Positions 4,099-17,670 of a stretch of DNA of 64,000 nt are shown one piece after another. The stretch is from Chloroherpetonaceae bacterium. GTDB lineage: Bacteria > Bacteroidota > Chlorobiia > Chlorobiales > Thermochlorobacteraceae. A program made the position numbers and the translations under genes. The stretch's first letter is position 1. The number at the start of each line of letters is the position of its first letter. The DNA lies in assembly GCA_025055975.1 (NCBI GenBank), contig JANWWM010000016.1, forward strand, positions 1 through 64,000, written 5' to 3'. Below the pieces are notes generated by a model. It had not been told where the DNA came from, searched no databases, and saw only the letters and a list, made by a program, of their open reading frames with translations.

Positions 4099-4209
4099 CG
4101 ACGCGAGGCGGAACTTAACGATTTCGTTATGCGCTCGCGCTCGCGTTTTGCCGATAAAATTCAATATCTTTCTCGCGTCTCTTTCAACGAACAGCGAAGG
4201 AGCGAAGAC

Positions 4210-5406
4210 ATGCACGCCGAACAAACGCATCGCGATCGCGCCTTTGGCTTTGCGACGCGCGCCATTCACTATGGGCAAGAGCCTGACGCGACGACGGGCG
4301 CCGTCGCGCCGATTCTCTCGCTCGCCACCACCTACAAGCAAGACGGCGTCAATCAACCGCGCGGCGGCTTTGAATACTCCCGCGCTCAAAATCCCACGCG
4401 CGCCCAATTGGAAACGGTTTTGGCAGGCTTGGAAAACGCCGAGTTCGCCAACGCTTTCGCGTCGGGACTCGCCGCGCTGGCGGGCTTGATGAGCCTTTTT
4501 GCCCCTGGCGATCACATCATCGCGGGCGACGACCTTTACGGCGGAACGGCGCGTTACTTCGACCAAGTTCTGTCGAAATACGGCATCGAGTTTTCATACA
4601 TCGACGCGACCAATCTCGACGCGCTCGAACGCGCCATCGCTCCCAATACGAAGCTCATCTACTTGGAATCGCCGACGAACCCGATGCTTCGCCTTGCCGA
4701 CATTCGCGCCGTTTCGGAACTGGCGAAACGGCGCAACGTTCTTCTTGCCGTCGACAACACCTTCGCCACGCCGTATCTGCAACGCCCGCTCGAACTCGGC
4801 GCGGACGTGGTTTTGCACAGCTCGACGAAATACTTGGGCGGACATAGCGACATCGTGGGCGGCGCGTTGATGACGAACCGACGCGACCTCTACGAAAAAT
4901 TCCAGTTCCATCAAAAAGCCGTCGGCGCCGTGCCATCGCCCTTCGACTGCTGGCTCTTGATGCGCTCGATCAAAACGCTCGCGCTTCGAATGGAAAAACA
5001 TTGCGAAAACGCGCTTGCCGTCGCGCAGTTTCTCGAGCGCAGCGGCGCGGCAAAAAAGGTTTATTACCCCGGCTTGCCCTCCAATCCGTTTCACGAGCTT
5101 GCCAAGCGACAAATGCCCAAGGGCTTTGGCGGAATGGTCAGCGTCGACTTGGGCGGCAGAGCCGAAGCGGAAGCCTTCATCAAGGAGTTGCGCCTCTTCA
5201 TCTTCGCCGAAAGTCTCGGCGGCGTGGAAAGTTTGGCTTGTTTTCCTTGGGAGATGACGCACGCTTCCGTGCCCATCGAGCGCCGGCTCAAACTGGGCTT
5301 GACCGAAGGATTGATTCGCCTCTCCGTTGGCATCGAGGACAAAGAGGATTTAATCAATGAGCTGGAACGCGCGCTTTCCGCCGCGCAAGTCGCCGTGGCG
5401 ACCTAA
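4210..5406 (+). CDS. Cys/Met-metabolism PLP-dependent enzyme (cystathionine gamma-synthase/lyase family)
   Basis: SSTKYLGGHSDIVGGALMT (PLP-Lys), FASGLAALAGLMSLFAPGDHII, YLESPTNPMLRLADI. Confidence 0.9.
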   Translation: MHAEQTHRDRAFGFATRAIHYGQEPDATTGAVAPILSLATTYKQDGVNQPRGGFEYSRAQNPTRAQLETVLAGLENAEFANAFASGLAALAGLMSLFAPGDHIIAGDDLYGGTARYFDQVLSKYGIEFSYIDATNLDALERAIAPNTKLIYLESPTNPMLRLADIRAVSELAKRRNVLLAVDNTFATPYLQRPLELGADVVLHSSTKYLGGHSDIVGGALMTNRRDLYEKFQFHQKAVGAVPSPFDCWLLMRSIKTLALRMEKHCENALAVAQFLERSGAAKKVYYPGLPSNPFHELAKRQMPKGFGGMVSVDLGGRAEAEAFIKELRLFIFAESLGGVESLACFPWEMTHASVPIERRLKLGLTEGLIRLSVGIEDKEDLINELERALSAAQVAVAT

Positions 5407-5429: not shown

Positions 5430-5744
5430 ATGCAAAACATCGACAAGCTTTTGGACTTGCTTTCCATTCACGCCGAAGTGCAACACAAGTTCATCGCGGA
5501 GCAAGACGCCATCAACGCCGAAATCCGCCAACTGCGCTCCGACGCGCAAGACTTGCGCACGGACTTGCTTCAATTGCGGGCGGAGTTCCAACAACTGCAC
5601 AACGATCTGTCCAAAATCTGCATGATTCTCGCCACGCCCAAGGCGAACCGAATGGAATTCGCCGTGTCCATCTTCGGCGATGAGTTTGAGAGAATGAAGG
5701 AATCCGAAAACAACGCTCAACCCAATCCCAACAATGCAACCTGA
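5430..5744 (+). CDS. Small predicted coiled-coil protein (paralog 1)
   Basis: 104-aa ORF MQNIDKLLDLLSIHAEVQ...LRTDLLQLRAEFQQLHNDL; aligns without gaps to the next ORF. Confidence 0.65.
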   Translation: MQNIDKLLDLLSIHAEVQHKFIAEQDAINAEIRQLRSDAQDLRTDLLQLRAEFQQLHNDLSKICMILATPKANRMEFAVSIFGDEFERMKESENNAQPNPNNAT

Positions 5745-5973
5745 AGACAAACTCTTGGATGCGTTTGGCATCTTGGCGGATTTGCAACAGCGCGCCTACG
5801 AAAAAGCGCATGCGATAACGGAAACCATCGGCGACCTGCGGCGCGACGTGCAAGAGATTCGCATCGATATGCTTCAAATTCGCACCGCGCTCCAACAACT
5901 GCATTCCGACTTTGTGCGCGTGGCGTATCTTTTGGCGGAGCAAGCCGAGCAAGAAAAAGCGAAGCAAGCGTAA
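5734..5973 (+). CDS. Small predicted coiled-coil protein (paralog 2)
   Basis: 79-aa ORF MQPEDKLLDAFGILADLQ...IRIDMLQIRTALQQLHSDF; start overlaps the paralog 1 stop by 11 nt. Confidence 0.65.
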   Translation: MQPEDKLLDAFGILADLQQRAYEKAHAITETIGDLRRDVQEIRIDMLQIRTALQQLHSDFVRVAYLLAEQAEQEKAKQA

Positions 5974-6069
5974 CCTTGTTTCTTTTTGCATTTCGCGGGT
6001 TGAAACTTATATTCGGCGCGAATTCCGCAGCCAAGTCATCGCCAAACTTCTAAACAGCCCAAAATCGCA

Positions 6070-7182
6070 ATGTCGTTCACGGGTAGCATCAAAGGTTGGA
6101 CGATTACCGAAATGTTGCAACTCATCCGCCAGCTCAAAAAAACGGGCGCGATGATCGCCGAAGTCTCCACCTCCTACGGAGACGTGACGAAAACAGTATA
6201 CTTCCGCAACGGGCTTGTCATCGCCGTCGATACGGGCAGCGACGACTTGGGCGCGGTTCTTCTCGAAGAAAATCTCATCACGCGGCAAGATCTCGACGAA
6301 GCCATCGCGCTTCAAAAAGCCAAATACCCCGACAAACGCATCGAGCAGATTCTTTTGGCGACCAAAAAAGTCGACGCGCCGAAAGTCGTCAAAGCCATTC
6401 GCATTCAGATTGAGCGCACCATCACGTCGCTCCTGCAAGAAAAGAGCGTCAAGGTCAACTTCGATCCCGACGCGCCGCTCACCGTGCAGGCGTTGAGCAC
6501 GGGCGTGGACATTCAGGGCATTATGCTCTCCGCGTCGGTCAAAGTCGACGAACTCGGTCTCGTCAAACAGCGCATTCCCAGCACGACCCTCGTTCCCAAA
6601 ATCACCAAACGCGGCGAAGAGGAAAAAAACGAAATCGCGCTCAAGCTCGTCGAGTGGAAAGTCTTTCTCGCCATCGATGGCAAGACCGACATCAAGACGC
6701 TGGCGCTCAAGCTCAAAATGGACGAGGTGCAAGTGATGAAAGCGCTCGTCGTGCTTTTGGACGGCAAGTGGGTCGAATTGCCCCAAGCCGCCGCTACGGA
6801 GCGCAAGCGCGTCCTCATCGTCGATGACAGCGCCGTGATTCGCATGGCGGTCAAAAAAGCCCTCGCCGATTCGGGCTACGAACTCTTGGACGCGGGCACG
6901 GGCGAAATCGGCTTGAAACTCGCCAAAGAAAAACAACCGCACCTCATTCTGCTCGACGTGATGCTTCCCGACACGACGGGCTTGAAAGTTTGCAAAACGC
7001 TCCGAACCGAACTGGAAATCACCACGCCCATCGTGATGCTCTCCGCCAAAGACGCGGAAATCGACCGAAACCTTGGCATTCACGCGGGCGCCAACGACTA
7101 CGTCACCAAACCCTTCAAAGACGCGGACTTGGTGAGCGTGGTCGACAAATACTTAAAACAAGCCGAAGGCTCGTCGTCCTGA
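6070..7182 (+). CDS. DUF4388/PATAN-like domain fused to C-terminal REC domain
   Basis: N-terminus MSFTGSIKGWTITEMLQLIRQLKKTGAMIAE...TVYFRNGLVIAV is DUF4388-like; C-terminus VLIVDDSAVIRMAVKKAL...LILLDVMLPDTTGLKV...YVTKPF is REC. Confidence 0.85.
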   Translation: MSFTGSIKGWTITEMLQLIRQLKKTGAMIAEVSTSYGDVTKTVYFRNGLVIAVDTGSDDLGAVLLEENLITRQDLDEAIALQKAKYPDKRIEQILLATKKVDAPKVVKAIRIQIERTITSLLQEKSVKVNFDPDAPLTVQALSTGVDIQGIMLSASVKVDELGLVKQRIPSTTLVPKITKRGEEEKNEIALKLVEWKVFLAIDGKTDIKTLALKLKMDEVQVMKALVVLLDGKWVELPQAAATERKRVLIVDDSAVIRMAVKKALADSGYELLDAGTGEIGLKLAKEKQPHLILLDVMLPDTTGLKVCKTLRTELEITTPIVMLSAKDAEIDRNLGIHAGANDYVTKPFKDADLVSVVDKYLKQAEGSSS

Positions 7183-7247
7183 CCGCTTGATCAAAAGACG
7201 ATTTTCAAACATAATCTCTTAAACAGAACGCCCGTTCAATACAACTT

Positions 7248-7613
7248 ATGCCGAAGGCTCTCATTATCGACGACAGCGCGGTAGAGCGCACGATCATCTC
7301 CAAAGTGATGATTGCGCTGGGCTACACCATTCTCGAAGCCAACGATGGCGAAGAGGGCGAAGAAAAAGCCCGCACGATGAAACCCGACGTCATCTTGCTC
7401 GATGTCGTGATGCCCAAAAAAGACGGCTTCCAAGTGTGCCGAAACCTCAAAAAAGACGCGACGACGGGGAAAATCCCCATCATTATGATCACCTCGAAAA
7501 ACCAAGAAAGCGACAAGTTCTGGGGCATGAAACAAGGCGCCGACGTCTATCTCGTCAAGCCTTTCACCGAAGAAGATCTCGTTTCCGCCGTCAAGAAGGC
7601 GACGAGTAGCTAA
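7248..7613 (+). CDS. CheY-like response regulator (PilH/PixH-like)
   Basis: LIIDDSAVERTII, VILLDVVMPKKDGFQVCRNLK, VYLVKPFTEEDL. Confidence 0.9.
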   Translation: MPKALIIDDSAVERTIISKVMIALGYTILEANDGEEGEEKARTMKPDVILLDVVMPKKDGFQVCRNLKKDATTGKIPIIMITSKNQESDKFWGMKQGADVYLVKPFTEEDLVSAVKKATSS

Positions 7614-7648
7614 CGACCTTTGCGGACTTTATCAACCCGTTTGACGCG

Positions 7649-8284
7649 ATGAACAACGAGCAACTCGCTGAACAACTGGCGCGACTAAACTTTACCATTC
7701 CCGCCGGCGTGTCGCTGCGCGACTTGGAGGGCATGGCAAGCGTTCTGGAACGGCTCAAAGCTCTCGGAGCCGACAAAACTGACGCCGCCACGCGCGAAGA
7801 CGAAGAGGCGCGCGAACAGTTCATCGCCGTCCTCATCGGCGAAAGAGAAGTTGGGTTTCGCGTCGTGGACATCGAAGCGATTTTGGACGTGCAGAAAATC
7901 ACGCCCGTTCCTGGACTGCCGAACTTCGTGCTTGGCGTGTGCAACGTGCGCGGCGAAATCACTTCCGTCGTCGACATTCATCGCATTTTCGGCATCGAGG
8001 CTCGACGACAAAAAACGCGCCGCCAAAAAGCCGCCGAAAAAATGGTGATTCTGCGCAACAACAAGTTCTCCGTCGCCTGCGTCGTCGATGCCGTCTTGGA
8101 CGTGTTCCGCGTCGCCGAACCCGACATCGAGAAGGTCAACGCCGCCGATGGCGAAATGGAGCGGCTTGCGCCGTTTGCGCGCGGCTTGTATGTTCGCCCC
8201 GACGCGGCGGGCAAACGCGACGAGGTGATTTTGATTGACACCAAGAAACTATTGGATTCGCCCGAAATGACGCAATTCCAATAG
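7649..8284 (+). CDS. CheW-like coupling protein (PilI/PixI-like)
   Basis: FIAVLIGEREVGFRVVDIEAILDVQKITPVPGLPNFVLGVCNVRGEITSVVDIHRIFG is a CheW signature. Confidence 0.88.
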   Translation: MNNEQLAEQLARLNFTIPAGVSLRDLEGMASVLERLKALGADKTDAATREDEEAREQFIAVLIGEREVGFRVVDIEAILDVQKITPVPGLPNFVLGVCNVRGEITSVVDIHRIFGIEARRQKTRRQKAAEKMVILRNNKFSVACVVDAVLDVFRVAEPDIEKVNAADGEMERLAPFARGLYVRPDAAGKRDEVILIDTKKLLDSPEMTQFQ

Positions 8285-8350
8285 TCCGCGTCTCAAAACG
8301 CGATGAAAACCCGTTAGGCGCAATTTTTCTCAACTTCAAATTTTCCGACA

Positions 8351-9829
8351 ATGGCAACGAATCCGCAACAATCCAGCGAGCAAAGCAAAGACGCATTGAA
8401 TCTGGGCATTGACCTCGACAGCATCTTGGGCGACGTGCTGAGCAACGAGCAACAAGCCGCCGCCGTCTTCTCGACCGACGACGAGGGCATTCTCCGCATC
8501 GATGGCGACCGCATCATCTTGGAAGTCGACGAAGAACTCGAGCAAGGCATCGATGAAGAAGCCAAGATGTTCCAAGCCAACGACTACTACAAAAACAAGG
8601 ATTGGTTCAACGCGCTCATCGTCGCGCTCGCGCTCAACATCCGTTTCAAGCAAGGCGTGGGCAAGCGTAGCGACGCCATCGTGCGCCGTCAAGACGAGAT
8701 TCTCTTCGAGTGCAACTATCACATCGCCGCCGACCATCTCAACAAAGTCAAAACCACCAAAGGCGACGAGCAGATAGAACACAAACTCGCCGCCATTATG
8801 CACCTCTACACCGCCCTCGACCAAACGCCGCTCAAAGGTCAGGAGCAATACCGCGAAAAAGCCAAGCAAATCATCGAAAGCATGGTGTCGCGCGACCGAG
8901 CGGGCGGACAAGCCTACATCAAAGCGGGCTTCTTCAAGAAAATCGTCGTTCCGTCGCTCGAAGACAAAGCCCAAAAAGCGTTCTATTGGAAAGACCGAGC
9001 GGCAAACGAAAAAGACCCCGTCCGCAAGGAGTTCTACCTCTTGATGACGTTCGCTTCTGACATCGGCTACTTCCCCTACCAACTCGCTCTCGCCAACTTT
9101 TACCTTGAAGCGGGACGATTGGACGAAGCCTGCCGCTACATCAAAGTCGCCCTCCCGCTCATCAAAGACGAGGGCGCGAATTTCCTGCTTGGCGTGCGCA
9201 AAAAAGATCCGAATTACAGCGACAATTTCATCGAGCGTCGCTTGAAATCCGACATCAAGCAATTGCGCGGTCGCTTCGAAAACCCCGACGCGAAAGAAGC
9301 CAACGAAAAAGACGAAGCGCGAAAAGCGCAGATGACCAAGCAACGCATTCGCAAATTCCTCGAAACCGTCGACCTTTGGGAAAAACAAATGGAGGGAATG
9401 AAAGTCGACGTGCCTTTCAAAAACTCCACGTTGCGCGTCGCTTACTTCAGCGCCCTCGTGGATTTGATGGATGAGGTAACGAAGAAAATGCCTGGCATCG
9501 TCGTTCAAGATTACATCGATCGATACAAGACGACCGAAGTGCGCAGCGTGCAGAACCCCAACATCTTGAACTTCATCGATTTCAGCTTCAAAAATTGCAT
9601 CGTCCCCGACGAAAAAACCGTGCAAGGTCTCGTCGTGGAAGGCGACGCGGAAGCCAAGCTCGACAAACTGATGAAGTCGGTGGTCGATTATTTCAACGCG
9701 GAACTTGGCATCTCAAGCAAACCGCTCCCTGAAATGAAGGCGAATGTCGCCCGCGACGTCGACGAACTCGTCAGAGCGATGAAGGCGCAGGGCTACAAGT
9801 TCAAATCCACCCCTGCGCTGACGAAGTAA
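8351..9829 (+). CDS. Hypothetical protein, charged and mostly helical
   Basis: 492-aa ORF co-directional with the PATAN-REC/CheY/CheW genes; possibly TPR-like (DYYKNKDWFNALIVALALN, LALANFYLEAGRLDEACRYIKVALPL); no family recognised. Confidence 0.8.
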   Translation: MATNPQQSSEQSKDALNLGIDLDSILGDVLSNEQQAAAVFSTDDEGILRIDGDRIILEVDEELEQGIDEEAKMFQANDYYKNKDWFNALIVALALNIRFKQGVGKRSDAIVRRQDEILFECNYHIAADHLNKVKTTKGDEQIEHKLAAIMHLYTALDQTPLKGQEQYREKAKQIIESMVSRDRAGGQAYIKAGFFKKIVVPSLEDKAQKAFYWKDRAANEKDPVRKEFYLLMTFASDIGYFPYQLALANFYLEAGRLDEACRYIKVALPLIKDEGANFLLGVRKKDPNYSDNFIERRLKSDIKQLRGRFENPDAKEANEKDEARKAQMTKQRIRKFLETVDLWEKQMEGMKVDVPFKNSTLRVAYFSALVDLMDEVTKKMPGIVVQDYIDRYKTTEVRSVQNPNILNFIDFSFKNCIVPDEKTVQGLVVEGDAEAKLDKLMKSVVDYFNAELGISSKPLPEMKANVARDVDELVRAMKAQGYKFKSTPALTK

Positions 9830-9857
9830 CCCCCTCGCGCGCAACGAAATGCGAAAC

Positions 9858-9893
9858 GGGATAGGTCGCAGGCGGTCGCTTGCGACTTGTCCC
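9858..9893 (+). other. Intergenic hairpin, candidate structured leader or terminator
   Basis: GGGATAGGTCGCA - GGCGGTCGCT - TGCGACTTGTCCC: 13 consecutive pairs including two G-U on the + transcript, 10-nt loop. Confidence 0.6.
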
Positions 9894-10069
9894 CTTCTCA
9901 ATCGCCAAACGCTTCTCGCCCGCAAAACCGACGACGCTCAAACGCATAAAGCGCGACATGAACGCGCGCTTGGGTCTCTTGCGTCGACTTTGTTTTGCGC
10001 ATCAAATTTTTTCTTACTTTCAAGCGTTGAACCGCTTGCAAAGTTGCCTCAAATTCAAGATTGAAGTTT

Positions 10070-11170
10070 ATGGATTACCGATTTACCAAGTGGGACGAGC
10101 GAAGCCAAAAGCGCCAATCGTCGCTCGAAAAAATGCTCAAAGCGTTCAATCAGCTTTTGATTTACACCAACGGCGACGCGAACCAAGCGCTGCAATGGCT
10201 CACCGAGATGGATCGCCAATACGGACTGGGCGACGACGAAATGGGCATCGGCGATTTCATCGAATATCTCAAACGCGAGGGCTACCTCGAAGAACCCTCG
10301 CGCGACGGGATGTTCAGCATCACGAGCAAAACCACCAAGAAAATTCGAGAAGAATCGCTCAACGAAATTTTCACCTCGCTTCGCAAGCAATCGCAGTTTG
10401 GCAATCACAAAATCCCCAAGACGGGATCTTCCGACGAGCGCGTTCCCGAAACGCGCAACTGGAAGTTCGGCGACTCTCTGCAAAATCTCGACCTGACGCA
10501 AACCCTTCAAAACGCGCTCAAACACAGCGACCTTGACGACATCGTCCTTTCCGAAGACGACTTCCGCGTCTATGAAACCGAACATCAAACCACCTGCGCC
10601 ACGGTTTTGATGATCGATGTTTCGCACTCGATGATTCTCTACGGCGAAGACCGCATCACGCCCGCCAAGAAAGTCGCCATGGCGCTCGCCGAGCTGATTC
10701 TCACGCGCTATCCGAAAGACAGCCTCGACATTCTGCTCTTCGGCGACGAAGCTTGGCAAGTCGAAGTGAAAGATTTGCCCTTCATCAGCGTCGGACCGTA
10801 TCACACCAACACGAAAGCGGGGCTTGCGCTCGCGCGCCAAATTTTGAAGCGCAAGAAAAATCAAAACAAACAGATTTTTATGATTACCGACGGCAAGCCC
10901 TCCGCCATCAACGAAGGCGCGAAGATCTACAAAAACTCCTTCGGGCTCGACCGCAAAATCGTCAACAAAACCCTCGACGAAGCCGTGATGTGTCGGCGCG
11001 ACAAAATCACCATCACGACCTTTATGGTAACGAGCGATCCGTATTTGCAAGGCTTCGTCAACGAACTTACGCAAGCCAATCAAGGACGCGCCTATTTCAG
11101 CGGCTTGGACAATCTGGGCGAGTATATGTTCGTCGATTACATCAGAAATCGACGCAAGAAATTGCGATGA
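10070..11170 (+). CDS. VWA (von Willebrand factor A) domain protein
   Basis: MIDAS motif VLMIDVSHSM (DxSxS), later IFMITDGKPS. Confidence 0.88.
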   Translation: MDYRFTKWDERSQKRQSSLEKMLKAFNQLLIYTNGDANQALQWLTEMDRQYGLGDDEMGIGDFIEYLKREGYLEEPSRDGMFSITSKTTKKIREESLNEIFTSLRKQSQFGNHKIPKTGSSDERVPETRNWKFGDSLQNLDLTQTLQNALKHSDLDDIVLSEDDFRVYETEHQTTCATVLMIDVSHSMILYGEDRITPAKKVAMALAELILTRYPKDSLDILLFGDEAWQVEVKDLPFISVGPYHTNTKAGLALARQILKRKKNQNKQIFMITDGKPSAINEGAKIYKNSFGLDRKIVNKTLDEAVMCRRDKITITTFMVTSDPYLQGFVNELTQANQGRAYFSGLDNLGEYMFVDYIRNRRKKLR

Positions 11171-11736
11171 GGAGACGACCAATGATCGCGACGGAAAAAT
11201 CGCTCACGGGCGAGGCGTTGTTGGAGTTGCAACGAGCGACGGGCAAACGCTACGAGCTCGTCAAGGGAATTCCCGTTGAAACGATGCCCGCAGGCGGCAA
11301 GCACGGCTATATCGCGTCCAAGATTGAGCGCAAACTTGGCACGTTTGTCGAGGAACGACATCTCGGTTTCGTTTTCACGGCGGAGACGGGGGTGTATTTG
11401 GAGCGCAATCCCGACACGGTGCGTGGCGCCGATGTTACCTTCGTCTCCCGAACCAAAATCCACGCCTACGACGACATCGATTCGGGCTTCCTAACCGCGA
11501 TTCCCGACCTCGTCGTTGAGGTCGTCTCGCAACCCAATCAACTCGCCGACGCGCTCAACAAAGTCCAAGAATGGCGGCGCGCGGGCGTGTCCGAAGTCTG
11601 GCTCGTCGATGCGGAGCGAAAAACGGTCTCGGTTTATTCAAACGACGGCGTCCAAACGCTCAACGAAACCGACACCCTCGTCGGCAAGAACCTTCTTGAC
11701 GGCTTCTCGCTCCCCATCAAAACGATTTTTAGTTAA
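11167..11736 (+). CDS. Uma2-family (DUF820) PD-(D/E)XK nuclease-like protein
   Basis: GKRYELVKGIPVETMPAGGKHGYIASKIERKL, AIPDLVVEVVSQPNQLADALNKVQEWRRAGVSEVWLVDAERKTVSVY. ATGA overlap with the VWA stop. Confidence 0.85.
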   Translation: MRRRPMIATEKSLTGEALLELQRATGKRYELVKGIPVETMPAGGKHGYIASKIERKLGTFVEERHLGFVFTAETGVYLERNPDTVRGADVTFVSRTKIHAYDDIDSGFLTAIPDLVVEVVSQPNQLADALNKVQEWRRAGVSEVWLVDAERKTVSVYSNDGVQTLNETDTLVGKNLLDGFSLPIKTIFS

Positions 11737-11755
11737 GACAACAACGCATCGGTTT

Positions 11756-13237
11756 ATGAAAGACATCACGAAAATCAGAACGCTCGGAGAATTGAAGCGC
11801 GCAGGGTATCGCACGCGCTCCGTCAAGGACGAGATCCGCGAGAATTTGATTCAAAAGATGAAGGATGGGGAAAATCCCTTTCCCGGCATCATCGGCTACG
11901 AGCGCACGGTGATTCCGCAGCTGCAAAACGCCATTCTCTCCAAGCACGACATCATTCTGCTTGGGCTTCGCGGACAAGCCAAAACCAAAATGATTCGCTT
12001 GATGGTCAACTTGCTCGACGAGTTCATTCCCGTCATCAAAGGCTCGGAAATCAACGACGACCCGTTCAAGCCCATTTCGAAATACGCGCGCGAGAAAGTC
12101 CTGCACGAAGGCGACGAGACCGAAATCGCATGGCTTCATCGCTCCGAGCGTTACGGCGAAAAACTCGCCACGCCCGACGTGACGATCGCCGACCTCATCG
12201 GCGACATCGACCCCATCAAAGCCGCCTCGCAAAAGCTCACCTACGCCGACGAGAACGTCATTCATTACGGCATCATTCCGCGCACGAATCGCGGCATTTT
12301 CGCCATCAACGAGCTGCCCGACTTGCAACCGCGCATTCAAGTTGGCTTGCTCAACATTATGCAGGAAAAAGACATTCAAATTCGCGGCTTTCAAGTGCGA
12401 ATCCCGCTTGATATTTTCATCATCTACTCCGCAAACCCCGAAGATTACACCAATCGCGGCAACATCATCACGCCTTTGAAAGACCGCATCGATTCTCAAA
12501 TCATCACGCACTATCCGAAGACGATCGAAATCGGCATCAAAATCACGGAGCAGGAAGCATGGACGAAGCGTCCGTCGGAAGTCGAGGTGCGCGTGCCGCA
12601 TTACTTCAAGGAAATCATCGAGCACATCGCCTTCGAAGCGCGTCGGAGCGAATATGTCGACCAAAAGTCGGGCGTTTCGGCGCGGCTCACGATTACCGCC
12701 ATGGAAAACCTCGTCAGCAGCGCGGAACGGCGCGCCATTATGCACGACGAATCCGAATCCTGCGTGAGAATTTCGGACCTGTTCCTCGTCGTGCCCGCCA
12801 TCACGGGCAAGGTCGAACTCGTCTACGAAGGCGAGCAAGAGGGCGCGATCAACGTGGCGAAGTTGCTCATCGGCAAAGCCATCAACCAAGTTTTCAAGAA
12901 ATACTGCCCCGACCCCAACAAGAAACTTCAAGGACAAAGCCCTTACGCGACCATTACGGGATGGTTCTCGCAAGGCAACCACGTCGACATTTACGACGAT
13001 ATGAAGTTCGAGGAGTATTTCAAGGCGCTCGATAAGGTCAAAGGCTTGCGCGAGTTCGCGGAAAAGACTTTCCAAACCAAAGACAAGCAAGAGCTTGCTT
13101 CCGCGATGGAGTTCGTTCTGGAAGGCTTGCACCAAAACTCGATGGTGGGCAAAGACGAATTGGAAGCCTCGCGCACGTATAGCGATATGATTGGCAAGAT
13201 TATGTCGAGCGTCGGCGGCTCCAAGTTCGAGCGATGA
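11756..13237 (+). CDS. MoxR/Mg-chelatase-like AAA+ ATPase
   Basis: GLRGQAKTKMIRLM (Walker A-like), RGIFAINELPDLQPRIQVGLLNIMQEKDIQIRG, FIIYSANPEDYTNRGNIITPLKDRID. ATG at 11756. Confidence 0.88.
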   Translation: MKDITKIRTLGELKRAGYRTRSVKDEIRENLIQKMKDGENPFPGIIGYERTVIPQLQNAILSKHDIILLGLRGQAKTKMIRLMVNLLDEFIPVIKGSEINDDPFKPISKYAREKVLHEGDETEIAWLHRSERYGEKLATPDVTIADLIGDIDPIKAASQKLTYADENVIHYGIIPRTNRGIFAINELPDLQPRIQVGLLNIMQEKDIQIRGFQVRIPLDIFIIYSANPEDYTNRGNIITPLKDRIDSQIITHYPKTIEIGIKITEQEAWTKRPSEVEVRVPHYFKEIIEHIAFEARRSEYVDQKSGVSARLTITAMENLVSSAERRAIMHDESESCVRISDLFLVVPAITGKVELVYEGEQEGAINVAKLLIGKAINQVFKKYCPDPNKKLQGQSPYATITGWFSQGNHVDIYDDMKFEEYFKALDKVKGLREFAEKTFQTKDKQELASAMEFVLEGLHQNSMVGKDELEASRTYSDMIGKIMSSVGGSKFER

Positions 13238-13387: not shown

Positions 13388-14506
13388 ATGCGTTTGGACG
13401 CGGACATATTAGACGCGAGCGCATGCGTTATGCTTGCAGAAGCGGCGGCGCAAAACGTTTTATCCCACGAGGGCGCGGAGATGACGGAACGGTTGCTTTT
13501 GAATGTTTTGCAGGCGCTTCCCGAGCCTGTGCTCGTTGCGACGCTTGAACAGACGATTTGCTTCGCAAACGATTCCGCCCGCGCCACCCTTGTTCCTTCG
13601 ACGCGCGACGACATCGTTGGGTCACCGCTCTCTTCCCTCGTGACATCTGGCTCGGAGACTTTCAGCGATTGGCTTAAAAAGCCTCTCTGTTCCACGTCCT
13701 TCGTTTCCGAACAATTTGATTTTGCCACCTGTCAAGGCTCAAAGTCTTTTTGGATCGACGCTTGCTCAATACGCGACGACATGCGCGCGTATCTTTTGAT
13801 TCGTTTGAGAGCTCCCGACGCGCAACAGTCAGCGGTGCAATCGCTCGCGGTTCGCGTCGATATGCTTCAACAAGAAATCGCCATGCGTCGGGCGGCGGAA
13901 GCGCGACTTCAAGAAAGCCTAATCGAGTTAGAACGCGCCAAAAAACAATTGGAACAGCTTGCGACCGTCGATAGCCTGACGGGCATTCCGAATCGGCGCA
14001 GCATCGACGAAACCTTGCGACGCGAGTGGTCAAAAGCGATGCGCAACGGCGAACCGCTCGCGGCGATAATGGTCGATATCGATCATTTCAAGGACTATAA
14101 CGACGCTTACGGACACCAAGCGGGCGATCTCTGTTTGAAGCAAGTCGCAAACGCGATTCGCGCTTCGCTCCGACGCTCGACCGATTTCGTCGGGCGATAC
14201 GGCGGCGAAGAGTTCCTCGTCTTGCTCGAAAACTCCGATTGGGAAAAGGCGGCGAAAATGGCGGAAAAAATCTGCGAAGCCGTGCGCGAGCTGCGCATTC
14301 CGCACTCGGCTTCTGCGACGGCAAAGGTCGTTACCGTGAGCGCGGGCGTCAACGTTACGATTCCAAAGCCGCAATCGTCGATTGAAAAGTTCATCGGCGA
14401 CGCGGACGCGGCGCTCTACCAAGCCAAACGCAAAGGACGCAAGCAGTTCGTTCTGCATCAGAGAGCGGTTAAAGCTCGTTTGCAACGCCGAAAAGTTCGT
14501 TCATAA
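13388..14506 (+). CDS. Diguanylate cyclase (PAS-like N-terminus plus GGDEF)
   Basis: DSLTGIPNRRSIDE, VDIDHFKDYNDAYGHQAGD, RYGGEEFLVLL. Confidence 0.92.
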   Translation: MRLDADILDASACVMLAEAAAQNVLSHEGAEMTERLLLNVLQALPEPVLVATLEQTICFANDSARATLVPSTRDDIVGSPLSSLVTSGSETFSDWLKKPLCSTSFVSEQFDFATCQGSKSFWIDACSIRDDMRAYLLIRLRAPDAQQSAVQSLAVRVDMLQQEIAMRRAAEARLQESLIELERAKKQLEQLATVDSLTGIPNRRSIDETLRREWSKAMRNGEPLAAIMVDIDHFKDYNDAYGHQAGDLCLKQVANAIRASLRRSTDFVGRYGGEEFLVLLENSDWEKAAKMAEKICEAVRELRIPHSASATAKVVTVSAGVNVTIPKPQSSIEKFIGDADAALYQAKRKGRKQFVLHQRAVKARLQRRKVRS

Positions 14507-14526
14507 AGCGGGTTTGCCGCGAAACG

Positions 14527-14560
14527 AAAAAGCCCATCGCAAGATGGGCTTTTTGATTTT
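14527..14560 (+). terminator. Rho-independent terminator
   Basis: AAAAAGCCCATC-GCAA-GATGGGCTTTTT followed by GATTTT, 21 nt after the GGDEF stop. Confidence 0.88.
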
Positions 14561-14868
14561 GCGCCGTGGCGTCCAGCGCGTCATCGCAATGAGGTTGCCC
14601 GTCATCGTGGCGAAAAAAACGCATTCAATCGCGCCACTCGCGCAATTCATTGAGCGATTTCTTCGCAACGGAGAGAGCGGGTTTGGGTTTTCGCGCAAAA
14701 CTTCGGCATTGGTTGCGCGACTTTGGCGCAAGTCGTAACTTTTTTGACGGCTCGTTCATCAATGGAACGCCAGCCCAAACGCGAGAACGTTTTGCGCGTC
14801 CACGTTCCTTCAAGATTCGAGAAAGCGCGTTTCATTCCCATCTTGGCGCAACGCTCACGAGACTGACG

Positions 14869-15729
14869 ATGAAAGAAAATTTTTTCCCTTTTGAGTTCGA
14901 GAGCGGCAAAACGGCGGCATGTCGCTACGCCGAATTCGGCGACGATGGCAATCCGCCGATGCTGTTCATTCACGGTTATGGGGCGATGTGGCAACATTGG
15001 GAGCGCAACATCGCCGCGTTTGAAGGCGACCACAAAATTTACGCGCTTGATTTGCTCGGCTTTGGCGAATCCGAGAAGCCCAACGCGCGTTACGGCTTGT
15101 CGCTATGGGCGCAGCAAATCGCGGCGTTTTCGCGCTTCAAGAATTTGCGGCAGATGATTCTCGTCGGACACTCGATGGGCGCGGCATCGAGCCTGTGGTT
15201 CGCAAACGACCATCCCGAATCGCTCTTGTCGCTCGTTCTCGTCGATTCGTCGGGCATTTTTCCCGATGAGGTCGGAACGTTTGAACGCTTGCTGTATCGC
15301 GCCGTTGGCAGTCCGATCATCGGGGAAGCGCTGTTCGTTTTGTTCGCCAATGAGTTCGGGGCGCGGCAGAGTTTGTCGCCCACTTATCTTGACCAATCGC
15401 ACGTAACCGACGAGCTGGTGGCGCAATTCGCCAAGCCGCTGCGCAGTCCGGGCGCGATATACGCCTACCTTGCGCCTTCGCGCAACCCTGAACGATTTTT
15501 GCTTGACCAATTTCCGCGCCCGTGTCGCTACGGCGGAAACGCTCTTATCGTTTGGGGCGCGGAAGATTTGGCGTTTCCGCCCGCGAAGGTTCTGCCAAAG
15601 TTCAAGGAAATTTTGCCGCAGGCTCAGACCGTCGTATTGCCCAACGCGCGCCACTGCCCCCACCACGAAATCGCCGAATCGTTCAACGCCGTTCTGAAAG
15701 AATTTCTTGCAGAGACGGCGCGTTGCTAA
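14869..15729 (+). CDS. Alpha/beta hydrolase
   Basis: FIHGYGAMWQHW, LVGHSMGAASSLW (nucleophile elbow), NARHCPHHEI. ATG at 14869. Confidence 0.85.
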   Translation: MKENFFPFEFESGKTAACRYAEFGDDGNPPMLFIHGYGAMWQHWERNIAAFEGDHKIYALDLLGFGESEKPNARYGLSLWAQQIAAFSRFKNLRQMILVGHSMGAASSLWFANDHPESLLSLVLVDSSGIFPDEVGTFERLLYRAVGSPIIGEALFVLFANEFGARQSLSPTYLDQSHVTDELVAQFAKPLRSPGAIYAYLAPSRNPERFLLDQFPRPCRYGGNALIVWGAEDLAFPPAKVLPKFKEILPQAQTVVLPNARHCPHHEIAESFNAVLKEFLAETARC

Positions 15730-15819
15730 TTTTGCGCATTGCGCGCTTGGCGCGATCGCATCGCTTCGCTTGACGCGAAAAATGAACCGCCTCGTCAACC
15801 TAAACGCAAGCGCAACGCT

Positions 15820-17670
15820 ATGCAAGAAATCGTAACCAACAGAGCGAAGCCGAACTCCGCCGAAATCGCGGAAAAGTGGAAAACCATCGTCTATGGCATC
15901 ATTGACCACGCCTTCGAACCCATCGTGAACATTCACACGGGCGCGACCTTCGGCTACGAAGCCTTGCTACGCAATTATCAAGCGGCGGGGTTCGAGACCG
16001 TTTGGGAGTTCTTCGAGTCGGCTTACAAAGAGGGCGCGCTCTATCAGGTGGAACTGATGCTCCGCGAAAAAGCCATCGAGAAGTTTTGCCGAATCGGTCT
16101 TCAAGAGCGCATCAAACTGTTTCTCAACGTCGATAATCGCGTGCTCGAAATGCCCGACTACCAGCAGGGCAACACGGCGAAGATTTTGGCGCGCTACAAA
16201 ATGCCCACGAGCGCCATCTGCTTCGAAATCTCCGAAATGCATCGCATCAGCGGCAGCGACGCGGTGTTGCAAATTCTTCAACTCACCAAAAGTCAGAACT
16301 ACAAAATCGCCATCGATGATTTCGGCACGGGCTTTTCGGGCTTTCAATTGATGTATTACGCCAGCGCCGATTTCATCAAAATCGATCGCTTCTTCATCTC
16401 CAACATCTCCAACGATTCCAAAAAGCGCTTCTTCGTCGCCAGCATCATCAACATGGCGCACCTGTTGGGCATCACGGTCATCGCCGAAGGAGTCGAGACC
16501 GAACAAGAATTTTACATCTGCCGCGACTTGGGGTGCGACCTCATTCAAGGGCACTACATTCAAAAAGCCACGACGAACATCCGCGAATTGAAAATGAAAT
16601 ACGACATCGTCGAGATGCTCGTCCGCAAAGACCGTCGCAAAATCTCGCAAGATCAAGAAATCATCTACAACCAATCCGAGTTCATTCCCCAAATTCCGAT
16701 CACGGCGACGATGGAAGAGGTCTTCAACAAGTTTTTGGAGTTCGAGAATTACAGCTTCTTTCCCGTAACGACCGAAAACAACGAGCCTGTGGGCATCGTG
16801 CGCGAAAGAGACCTCAAAGCCTACACCTATTCGATGTATGGACGGCAGCTCTTGAAAAACAAGTCGTTTGGGAAAACCCTCAAAGACTTCATCGTCAAGT
16901 GCCCCATCGTCGACATCAACACGAAGGCGGAAAAAATGTTGGAAATTTTTTCCGTCGATGAAACCGTCGAGGGCATCATCGTTACGGCGCAGATGGAATA
17001 CATCGGCTTTTTGAGCGCCAAAGCGCTCCTGCGCGTCTTGAACGAGAAAAACTTGATGGCGGCGCGAGACCAAAATCCGCTCACGAAACTCCCCGGCAAC
17101 ACGCTTATTTATGGCTACGTCTCCGAGGCGCTCGCCGACACGGAATCCGACTATGCGTTCGTCTATTACGACTTCGACAACTTCAAGCCTTACAACGACC
17201 GCTACGGATTTCGCAACGGCGACCGCGTCATTTTGCTCTTTGCCGAAATTCTCCAAAAGCGCTTCGCGCGAGAGAGCTGTTTCGTCGGACATGTCGGGGG
17301 CGACGATTTCTTCGTGGGGTTCAAAAACTTGCGCTTCGACGAAGCCCGCGAACTGACGGCGATGGCGATCCAAGAATTTACCGATGGCGTCAAACCCTAC
17401 TACGACGAAACCGATCGCCATCGCGGTTACATCGAAGCCAAAGACCGCGACGGCAATTTCAAGCGATTCCCGCTTTTGACCGTTAGCGCGGCGATGCTCG
17501 AAATCCCCAAGAATCGCGTGCCGCTCACGATGGACGAAATCAGCGCGATTCTCGCCGATATGAAAAAAGCCGCCAAAGGCGCGCAAGGCAGCATTTGCGC
17601 TTCAACCATCGTGCCCGCCTTCGCCTTCGAGTATGCCAAACCCAAACCCATTGAACCGCAGAAAGCGTAA
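15820..17670 (+). CDS. EAL - CBS pair - GGDEF-type protein
   Basis: EAL residues GYEALLR, LFLNVDNRVLE, IDDFGTGFSG, IKIDRFFI, VIAEGVETE; CBS-like FFPVTTENNEPVGIVRERDL; C-terminal FVYYDFDNFKPYNDRYGF and HVGGDDFFVGF. Confidence 0.88.
   Translation: MQEIVTNRAKPNSAEIAEKWKTIVYGIIDHAFEPIVNIHTGATFGYEALLRNYQAAGFETVWEFFESAYKEGALYQVELMLREKAIEKFCRIGLQERIKLFLNVDNRVLEMPDYQQGNTAKILARYKMPTSAICFEISEMHRISGSDAVLQILQLTKSQNYKIAIDDFGTGFSGFQLMYYASADFIKIDRFFISNISNDSKKRFFVASIINMAHLLGITVIAEGVETEQEFYICRDLGCDLIQGHYIQKATTNIRELKMKYDIVEMLVRKDRRKISQDQEIIYNQSEFIPQIPITATMEEVFNKFLEFENYSFFPVTTENNEPVGIVRERDLKAYTYSMYGRQLLKNKSFGKTLKDFIVKCPIVDINTKAEKMLEIFSVDETVEGIIVTAQMEYIGFLSAKALLRVLNEKNLMAARDQNPLTKLPGNTLIYGYVSEALADTESDYAFVYYDFDNFKPYNDRYGFRNGDRVILLFAEILQKRFARESCFVGHVGGDDFFVGFKNLRFDEARELTAMAIQEFTDGVKPYYDETDRHRGYIEAKDRDGNFKRFPLLTVSAAMLEIPKNRVPLTMDEISAILADMKKAAKGAQGSICASTIVPAFAFEYAKPKPIEPQKA

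Follow-up and report, generated by a model that had tools for sequence, protein, structure and literature searches.

A Pix-like chemosensory cassette with an additional helical protein lies beside an unrelated VWA operon in a Chloroherpetonaceae bacterium

Nine open reading frames (ORFs), all on the + strand, lie between positions 5430 and 13237 of a 64,000-nucleotide stretch of a Chloroherpetonaceae bacterium genome (GCA_025055975.1, contig JANWWM010000016.1, positions 1 to 64,000; hereafter the window). They place a set of chemosensory genes next to a VWA-AAA+ pair, which raises the question of whether the two sets form one system. A first-pass annotation took the nine genes as one linked unit, in which a 492-aa protein (p492) and the VWA-AAA+ pair replace the methyl-accepting chemotaxis protein (MCP) and the CheA kinase. 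In relatives, however, the genes form two separate blocks, and we consider it probable (roughly 0.7) that the interval consists of two unrelated transcription units side by side in one genome, a Pix/Tax-like cassette and a VWA operon; from these genes we infer the signalling steps, the output, and a role for p492. The draft assembly of the window genome spans 2.68 Mb over 92 contigs, with a completeness of 85%, and genome-wide statements on it rest on searches of these contigs.

Positions 6070 to 9829 hold four genes of a five-gene cassette encoding PATAN-REC, CheY, CheW, p492, and MCP:

6070..7182, + strand: PATAN-REC (DUF4388 plus response regulator), PixG-like; Pfam DUF4388 (5e-17) and REC (1e-26)
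7248..7613, + strand: CheY, PixH-like single-REC protein; Pfam REC (8e-27)
7649..8284, + strand: CheW, PixI-like; Pfam CheW (5e-24); no other stand-alone CheW detected in the assembly
8351..9829, + strand: p492, conserved 492-aa all-helical protein; the MCP gene comes next in all other carriers
9830..9990, no strand: breakpoint interval; cassette similarity ends at 9829 and VWA-block similarity starts at 9991

Among 61 near relatives from families f1 to f4, p492 was found in 12 (all f1, plus the f2 and f3 members) and was absent from every genome of f4, a Chlorobiaceae-type family labeled from kinship. The order PATAN-REC, CheY, CheW, p492 is kept, with the genes adjacent, in 12/12 Chlorobiales carriers (the window genome included), and a profile search with p492 covering 395 genomes of the phylum recovered the same four-gene order in four genomes of another family, f5, bringing the carriers to 16. 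CheY and CheW stand beside PATAN-REC in conserved order in all 16, and the MCP gene directly follows p492 in 15, at a gap of ~50 to 162 bp in the nine genomes measured; the exception is the window genome. PATAN-REC is 67 to 93% identical across 10 aligned relatives, and its acidic pair D252-D253, phospho-site D296, and K347 are invariant, so that the phospho-site is intact. Because p492 lies between CheW and MCP in all 15 other carriers, it is an added part of the cassette, and the MCP is merely displaced in the window genome. We therefore rejected p492 as an MCP replacement, given also that an orthologue of the cassette MCP is present on another contig, C30. In one carrier (G007; L109, ~9231-10654), p492 occupies two reading frames and is interrupted by an in-frame stop, through either a true frameshift or an error of sequencing.

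Searches of the window-genome assembly detected just two MCP signalling domains, on contigs C14 and C30, and two CheW domains, that of the window CheW gene and that within the C14 CheA. The first-pass annotation was thus correct in seeing no local MCP or CheA and in supposing kinase input from elsewhere, the single CheA found being that of C14. The C30 protein (L138, 2964-4916) is 78 to 81% identical to the cassette MCPs of three genus-mates (G001, G002, and G003, of which G001 is rated 100% complete) and carries a Tll0287-like (PF11845) haem-c Cache domain, HAMP, and MCPsignal. The CXXCH haem motif is present in 15/16 cassette MCPs; the copy in G012 (L106, ~7229-9109) is without the CXXCH segment and retains the other Cache-HAMP-MCP parts. 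Judged by sequence, the cassette MCPs resemble sCache_heme (DUF3365/Tll0287) receptors in combining a Tll0287-like domain bearing CXXCH with HAMP and an MCP signalling domain, and differ in the loss of the CXXCH segment in this one lineage. According to a 2026 preprint, the Tll0287-like domain is a covalent-haem Cache sensor with nitric oxide sensor properties (PMC12889525).

The VWA-Uma2-AAA+ genes at 10070-13237 are a separate operon unrelated to the chemosensory cassette:

10070..11170, + strand: VWA_2 protein; Pfam VWA_2 (1e-9); operon separate from the che cassette
11167..11736, + strand: Uma2-family protein; Pfam Uma2 (1e-32); in this family a variable insertion between VWA and AAA+
11756..13237, + strand (ATG 11756): AAA+ protein (ChlI/MoxR-like), VWA partner; weak Pfam AAA+ matches in the ChlI/MoxR range

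The AAA+ gene lies on another contig or >50 kb from the cassette in every relative checked. In a count of 80 AAA+ loci (L019-L098) with flanks of ~8 kb, VWA was detected near AAA+ in 53, Uma2 in 5, and CheW or p492 in none. The proposal of regulation, in either direction, between the che trio with p492 and an adjacent VWA/AAA+ machine that together with p492 replaces MCP and CheA draws on their shared strand and their adjacency in the window genome, where the gap is ~240 bp. Set against this are the lack of linkage in the 11/11 other Chlorobiales carriers and in the 80 AAA+ loci, an AT-rich segment just upstream of VWA that is conserved in relatives with no cassette there, and the finding that the MCP is displaced rather than replaced. 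Such a functional link is very improbable, and we rejected it on gene order across the 11 relatives and 80 loci. The control of an AAA+/VWA machine by the che module, suggested earlier, fails with it, since no relative checked shows linkage between the pair and the cassette; of the linkage whose conservation was at issue, the che half is conserved and the AAA+/VWA half is not.

Within the window's genus, the block runs VWA-Uma2-AAA+-GGDEF-hydrolase-EAL, and the window agrees with it to 17670; positions 13388-17670 encode PAS-GGDEF, alpha/beta hydrolase, and EAL-CBS-GGDEF proteins after AAA+, in an order shared across the genus; the VWA/AAA+ block thus keeps company with cyclic di-GMP genes. 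The named relatives of the AAA+ protein at 95 to 97% protein identity are Chlorobiales/Candidatus Thermochlorobacteriaceae bins. The VWA start is most likely the ATG at 10070, where a relative begins MDYRF at the same point; an in-frame TTG is present at 10061. Adjacent VWA_2 and ChlI/MoxR-like AAA+ genes are widespread in Bacteroidota and neighbours, from which the pair here differs in its Walker A and Walker B motifs and an optional Uma2. The Walker A sequence (11756-13237; L019-L098) is GLRGQAK[T/S], with an unusual Ala before Lys, and in Walker B NE takes the place of DE; both hold for nearly every locus that covers these positions.

The junction itself could be biological or an artefact of a metagenome bin. 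Nucleotide similarity to G001 ends with the stop codon of p492 at 9829, and similarity to the VWA block of relatives picks up at 9991/10001; on C30, similarity to relatives starts exactly at the MCP start. That the p492-VWA adjacency and the p492-MCP split are products of misassembly is suggested by the 92-contig state of the draft and by an arrangement found in no other relative, but the junction sequence is single copy with no detected repeat to mislead an assembler, both breaks are intergenic and leave the genes intact, and species of the genus share ~74 to 82% nucleotide identity, divergent enough that rearrangements are expected. We regard misassembly as unlikely, at something like one chance in a handful, and favour a true rearrangement between p492 and VWA; under either, the VWA/AAA+ neighbour is outside the che system. 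We considered a reciprocal exchange, marked by type IX-type proteins close to VWA and to the displaced MCP, and dropped it because the 116-bp match resembles a shared sorting domain.

The kinase that serves the cassette must come from another locus. The CheA on C14 is a 2067-aa hybrid with two Hpt domains, HATPase, CheW, and REC, and its locus is ordered MCP, CheA, REC-DUF4388, Roadblock, MglA-like GTPase. The G001 locus has the same order, that of G009 reads CheA, REC-DUF4388, Roadblock, MglA, and in G006 just MCP and CheA were seen together. One CheA per genome was found via its CheW domain, in a locus holding an MglA-like GTPase and Roadblock, and G001 encodes one CheA and one stand-alone CheW. 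The MglA label derives from weak Arf/Gtr Pfam matches together with the gene pairing. MglA-like GTPase and Roadblock proteins are relatives of surface-motility polarity regulators. Preceding the Hpt pair, the C14 CheA (L003, 10484-16687) has ~1,100 acidic, Ser/Pro-rich residues that are poorly conserved between genera.

The closest known layout is that of Pix/Tax1 of Synechocystis (PixG, PixH, PixI, PixJ, PixL), whose gene order we take to be PATAN-REC, CheY, CheW, MCP. The likeness of the trio in content and order, already seen in the first-pass annotation, extends to the MCP and to the kinase, a CheA-REC hybrid that joins Hpt, HATPase, CheW, and REC domains. The differences are the extra conserved p492 gene between CheW and MCP, the placement of CheA in a second locus, Chlorobiales carriers without a PilB/PilT target, and an MCP with a haem-c Cache in place of the photoreceptor GAF/CBCR of PixJ. 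Because the sensor is a Tll0287-like haem Cache, the system is Pix-like in layout and not the Pix photoreceptor system. The second locus recalls Mgl/Frz polarity control of surface motility in Myxococcus, in that genes for an MglA-like GTPase and a Roadblock/LC7 (MglB-like) protein accompany those for an MCP and a hybrid CheA kinase; the MglA assignment here is a tentative one.

p492 is an undescribed conserved component of this Pix-like pathway. Its mean column identity within Chlorobiales is 64%, and Chlorobiales copies outside the window's genus have ~100 extra N-terminal residues. An AlphaFold2 model built with 15 sequences (mean predicted local distance difference test score 82.5, predicted template modelling score 0.73) is almost wholly helical beyond a low-confidence segment at residues 1-59. 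TPR profile matches were sub-threshold (best E 0.02, under the Pfam cut-off). Against solved structures, p492 gave weak helical-repeat matches (template modelling score ≤0.28, best Foldseek E 0.03, none with E ≤ 0.001), and a profile search of solved-structure sequences was unproductive, its match to a CheA fragment (E 0.39) falling short of significance. Our best guess, from fold type and gene position, is that p492 may be a scaffold that links the response regulators with CheW and MCP.

In the signalling scheme that these genes suggest, the haem predicted in the MCP would let it sense nitric oxide or a redox signal, CheW would couple it to the single CheA found, on C14, and CheA would phosphorylate CheY and PATAN-REC, with p492 as a scaffold joining CheW/MCP to these response regulators. 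PATAN-REC would then act on surface-gliding or polarity machinery, perhaps with the MglA-like/Roadblock pair encoded beside CheA.

What the cassette controls was approached through the distribution of motility genes. In Synechocystis, PixE, a PATAN regulator, binds PilB1, a pilus ATPase, and type IV pili are the presumed target of PATAN domains (PMC7690835). No PF00437 type IV pilus ATPase scored over the cut-off in 12/12 Chlorobiales carriers, whereas control genomes were positive in 13/14 cases; the f5 carriers have one PF00437 ATPase each (4/4). None of the 24 genomes tested has FliG. We therefore rejected type IV pili and flagella as outputs in the Chlorobiales carriers; lacking type IV pilus ATPases, these cannot have their PATAN regulator work through PilB, the partner best known for it. 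SprA was detected in 16/16 carriers and in none of the eight Chlorobiaceae-type genomes tested (G011, G013, G014, G022, G025, G028, G034, and G048), all eight of which also lack the cassette. Chloroherpeton glides, Thermochlorobacter is considered gliding, and Chlorobiaceae are non-motile (PMC9318685). As a separate observation, PF00437 secretion/pilus ATPases occur in 8/8 of the presumed non-motile Chlorobiaceae-type genomes and in none of the gliding Chlorobiales, a pattern opposite to that expected of twitching-type motility.

Pilus-independent control of gliding by the cassette is plausible, and the most likely output, on correlative grounds, is a gliding apparatus. The wider proposal, that a Pix-like pathway with p492 as a helical scaffold and a haem-c receptor steers surface motility in gliding Chlorobiales and a distant family, acting through a PATAN target other than PilB in the Chlorobiales without type IV pili or flagella, is offered tentatively, at rather less than even odds. 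Several points weigh against the overall reading of cassette, signalling scheme, and output. The link to gliding is a correlation over few lineages of shared ancestry, and PATAN regulators elsewhere are tied to type IV pili, which the Chlorobiales carriers lack. No motor was identified: NCBIfam models for GldL/GldM gave no match over cut-off in carriers, although the controls were silent too. A second CheA could also be missing because the draft is only 85% complete, yet the complete G001 shows one.

The cassette might instead control another output, such as type IX secretion activity, exopolysaccharide, or gene expression. No motor gene was seen in the two che loci, and SprA, which co-occurs with the cassette in all 16 carriers, is a secretion part; moreover, a CheY-like domain (that of PorX) binds GldL in Flavobacterium (PMC10951265). 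With an MglA-like GTPase and Roadblock in the second che locus, and with cassette presence tracking gliding versus non-motile members of one order, we think such an output unlikely, though it deserves to be kept in view beside control of gliding. SprA neighbourhoods inspected by eye contained no motility genes, and the single weak GldL match, inside the G001 cassette MCP, was taken as a coiled-coil artefact. An earlier survey recorded no type IX systems outside Bacteroidetes (PMC4793230), and a 2025 study notes that evidence is absent for an outer-membrane sensory transducer controlling rotation of the type IX motor (PMC12239597).

Upstream of the cassette lie the two remaining ORFs of the nine:

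5430..5744, + strand: CC1, 104-aa predicted coiled-coil protein, paralogue of CC2
5734..5973, + strand: CC2, 79-aa coiled-coil paralogue of CC1, overlapping CC1 by 11 bp

Cross-matches of ~30 to 37% identity bear out their description as paralogues in the first-pass annotation, whose account of nine consecutive + strand genes and their domains likewise agrees with the ORFs and Pfam matches. CC1 copies, 73 to 77% identical, are found upstream of PATAN-REC in G001-G003 and were seen only in the window's genus; no CC1 copy was found upstream of PATAN-REC in the other carrier families. In the window's genus, a cystathionine gamma-synthase-like gene (4129-5406) closely precedes the cassette, and in the f5 genomes (L129-L132) a further one comes right after the MCP gene; this may be coincidence.

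The adjacency of cassette and VWA operon is thus an accident of one genome, and recognising it as such averts a false functional association. What the five genes of the cassette define is a Pix-like pathway that includes an undescribed conserved component, in gliding bacteria for which neither type IV pilus ATPases nor flagella were detected. Because Chloroherpeton thalassium can be grown in culture, whether and how chemosensory signalling sets gliding direction independently of type IV pili is testable there, with p492, PATAN-REC, and the haem MCP as the named candidates.

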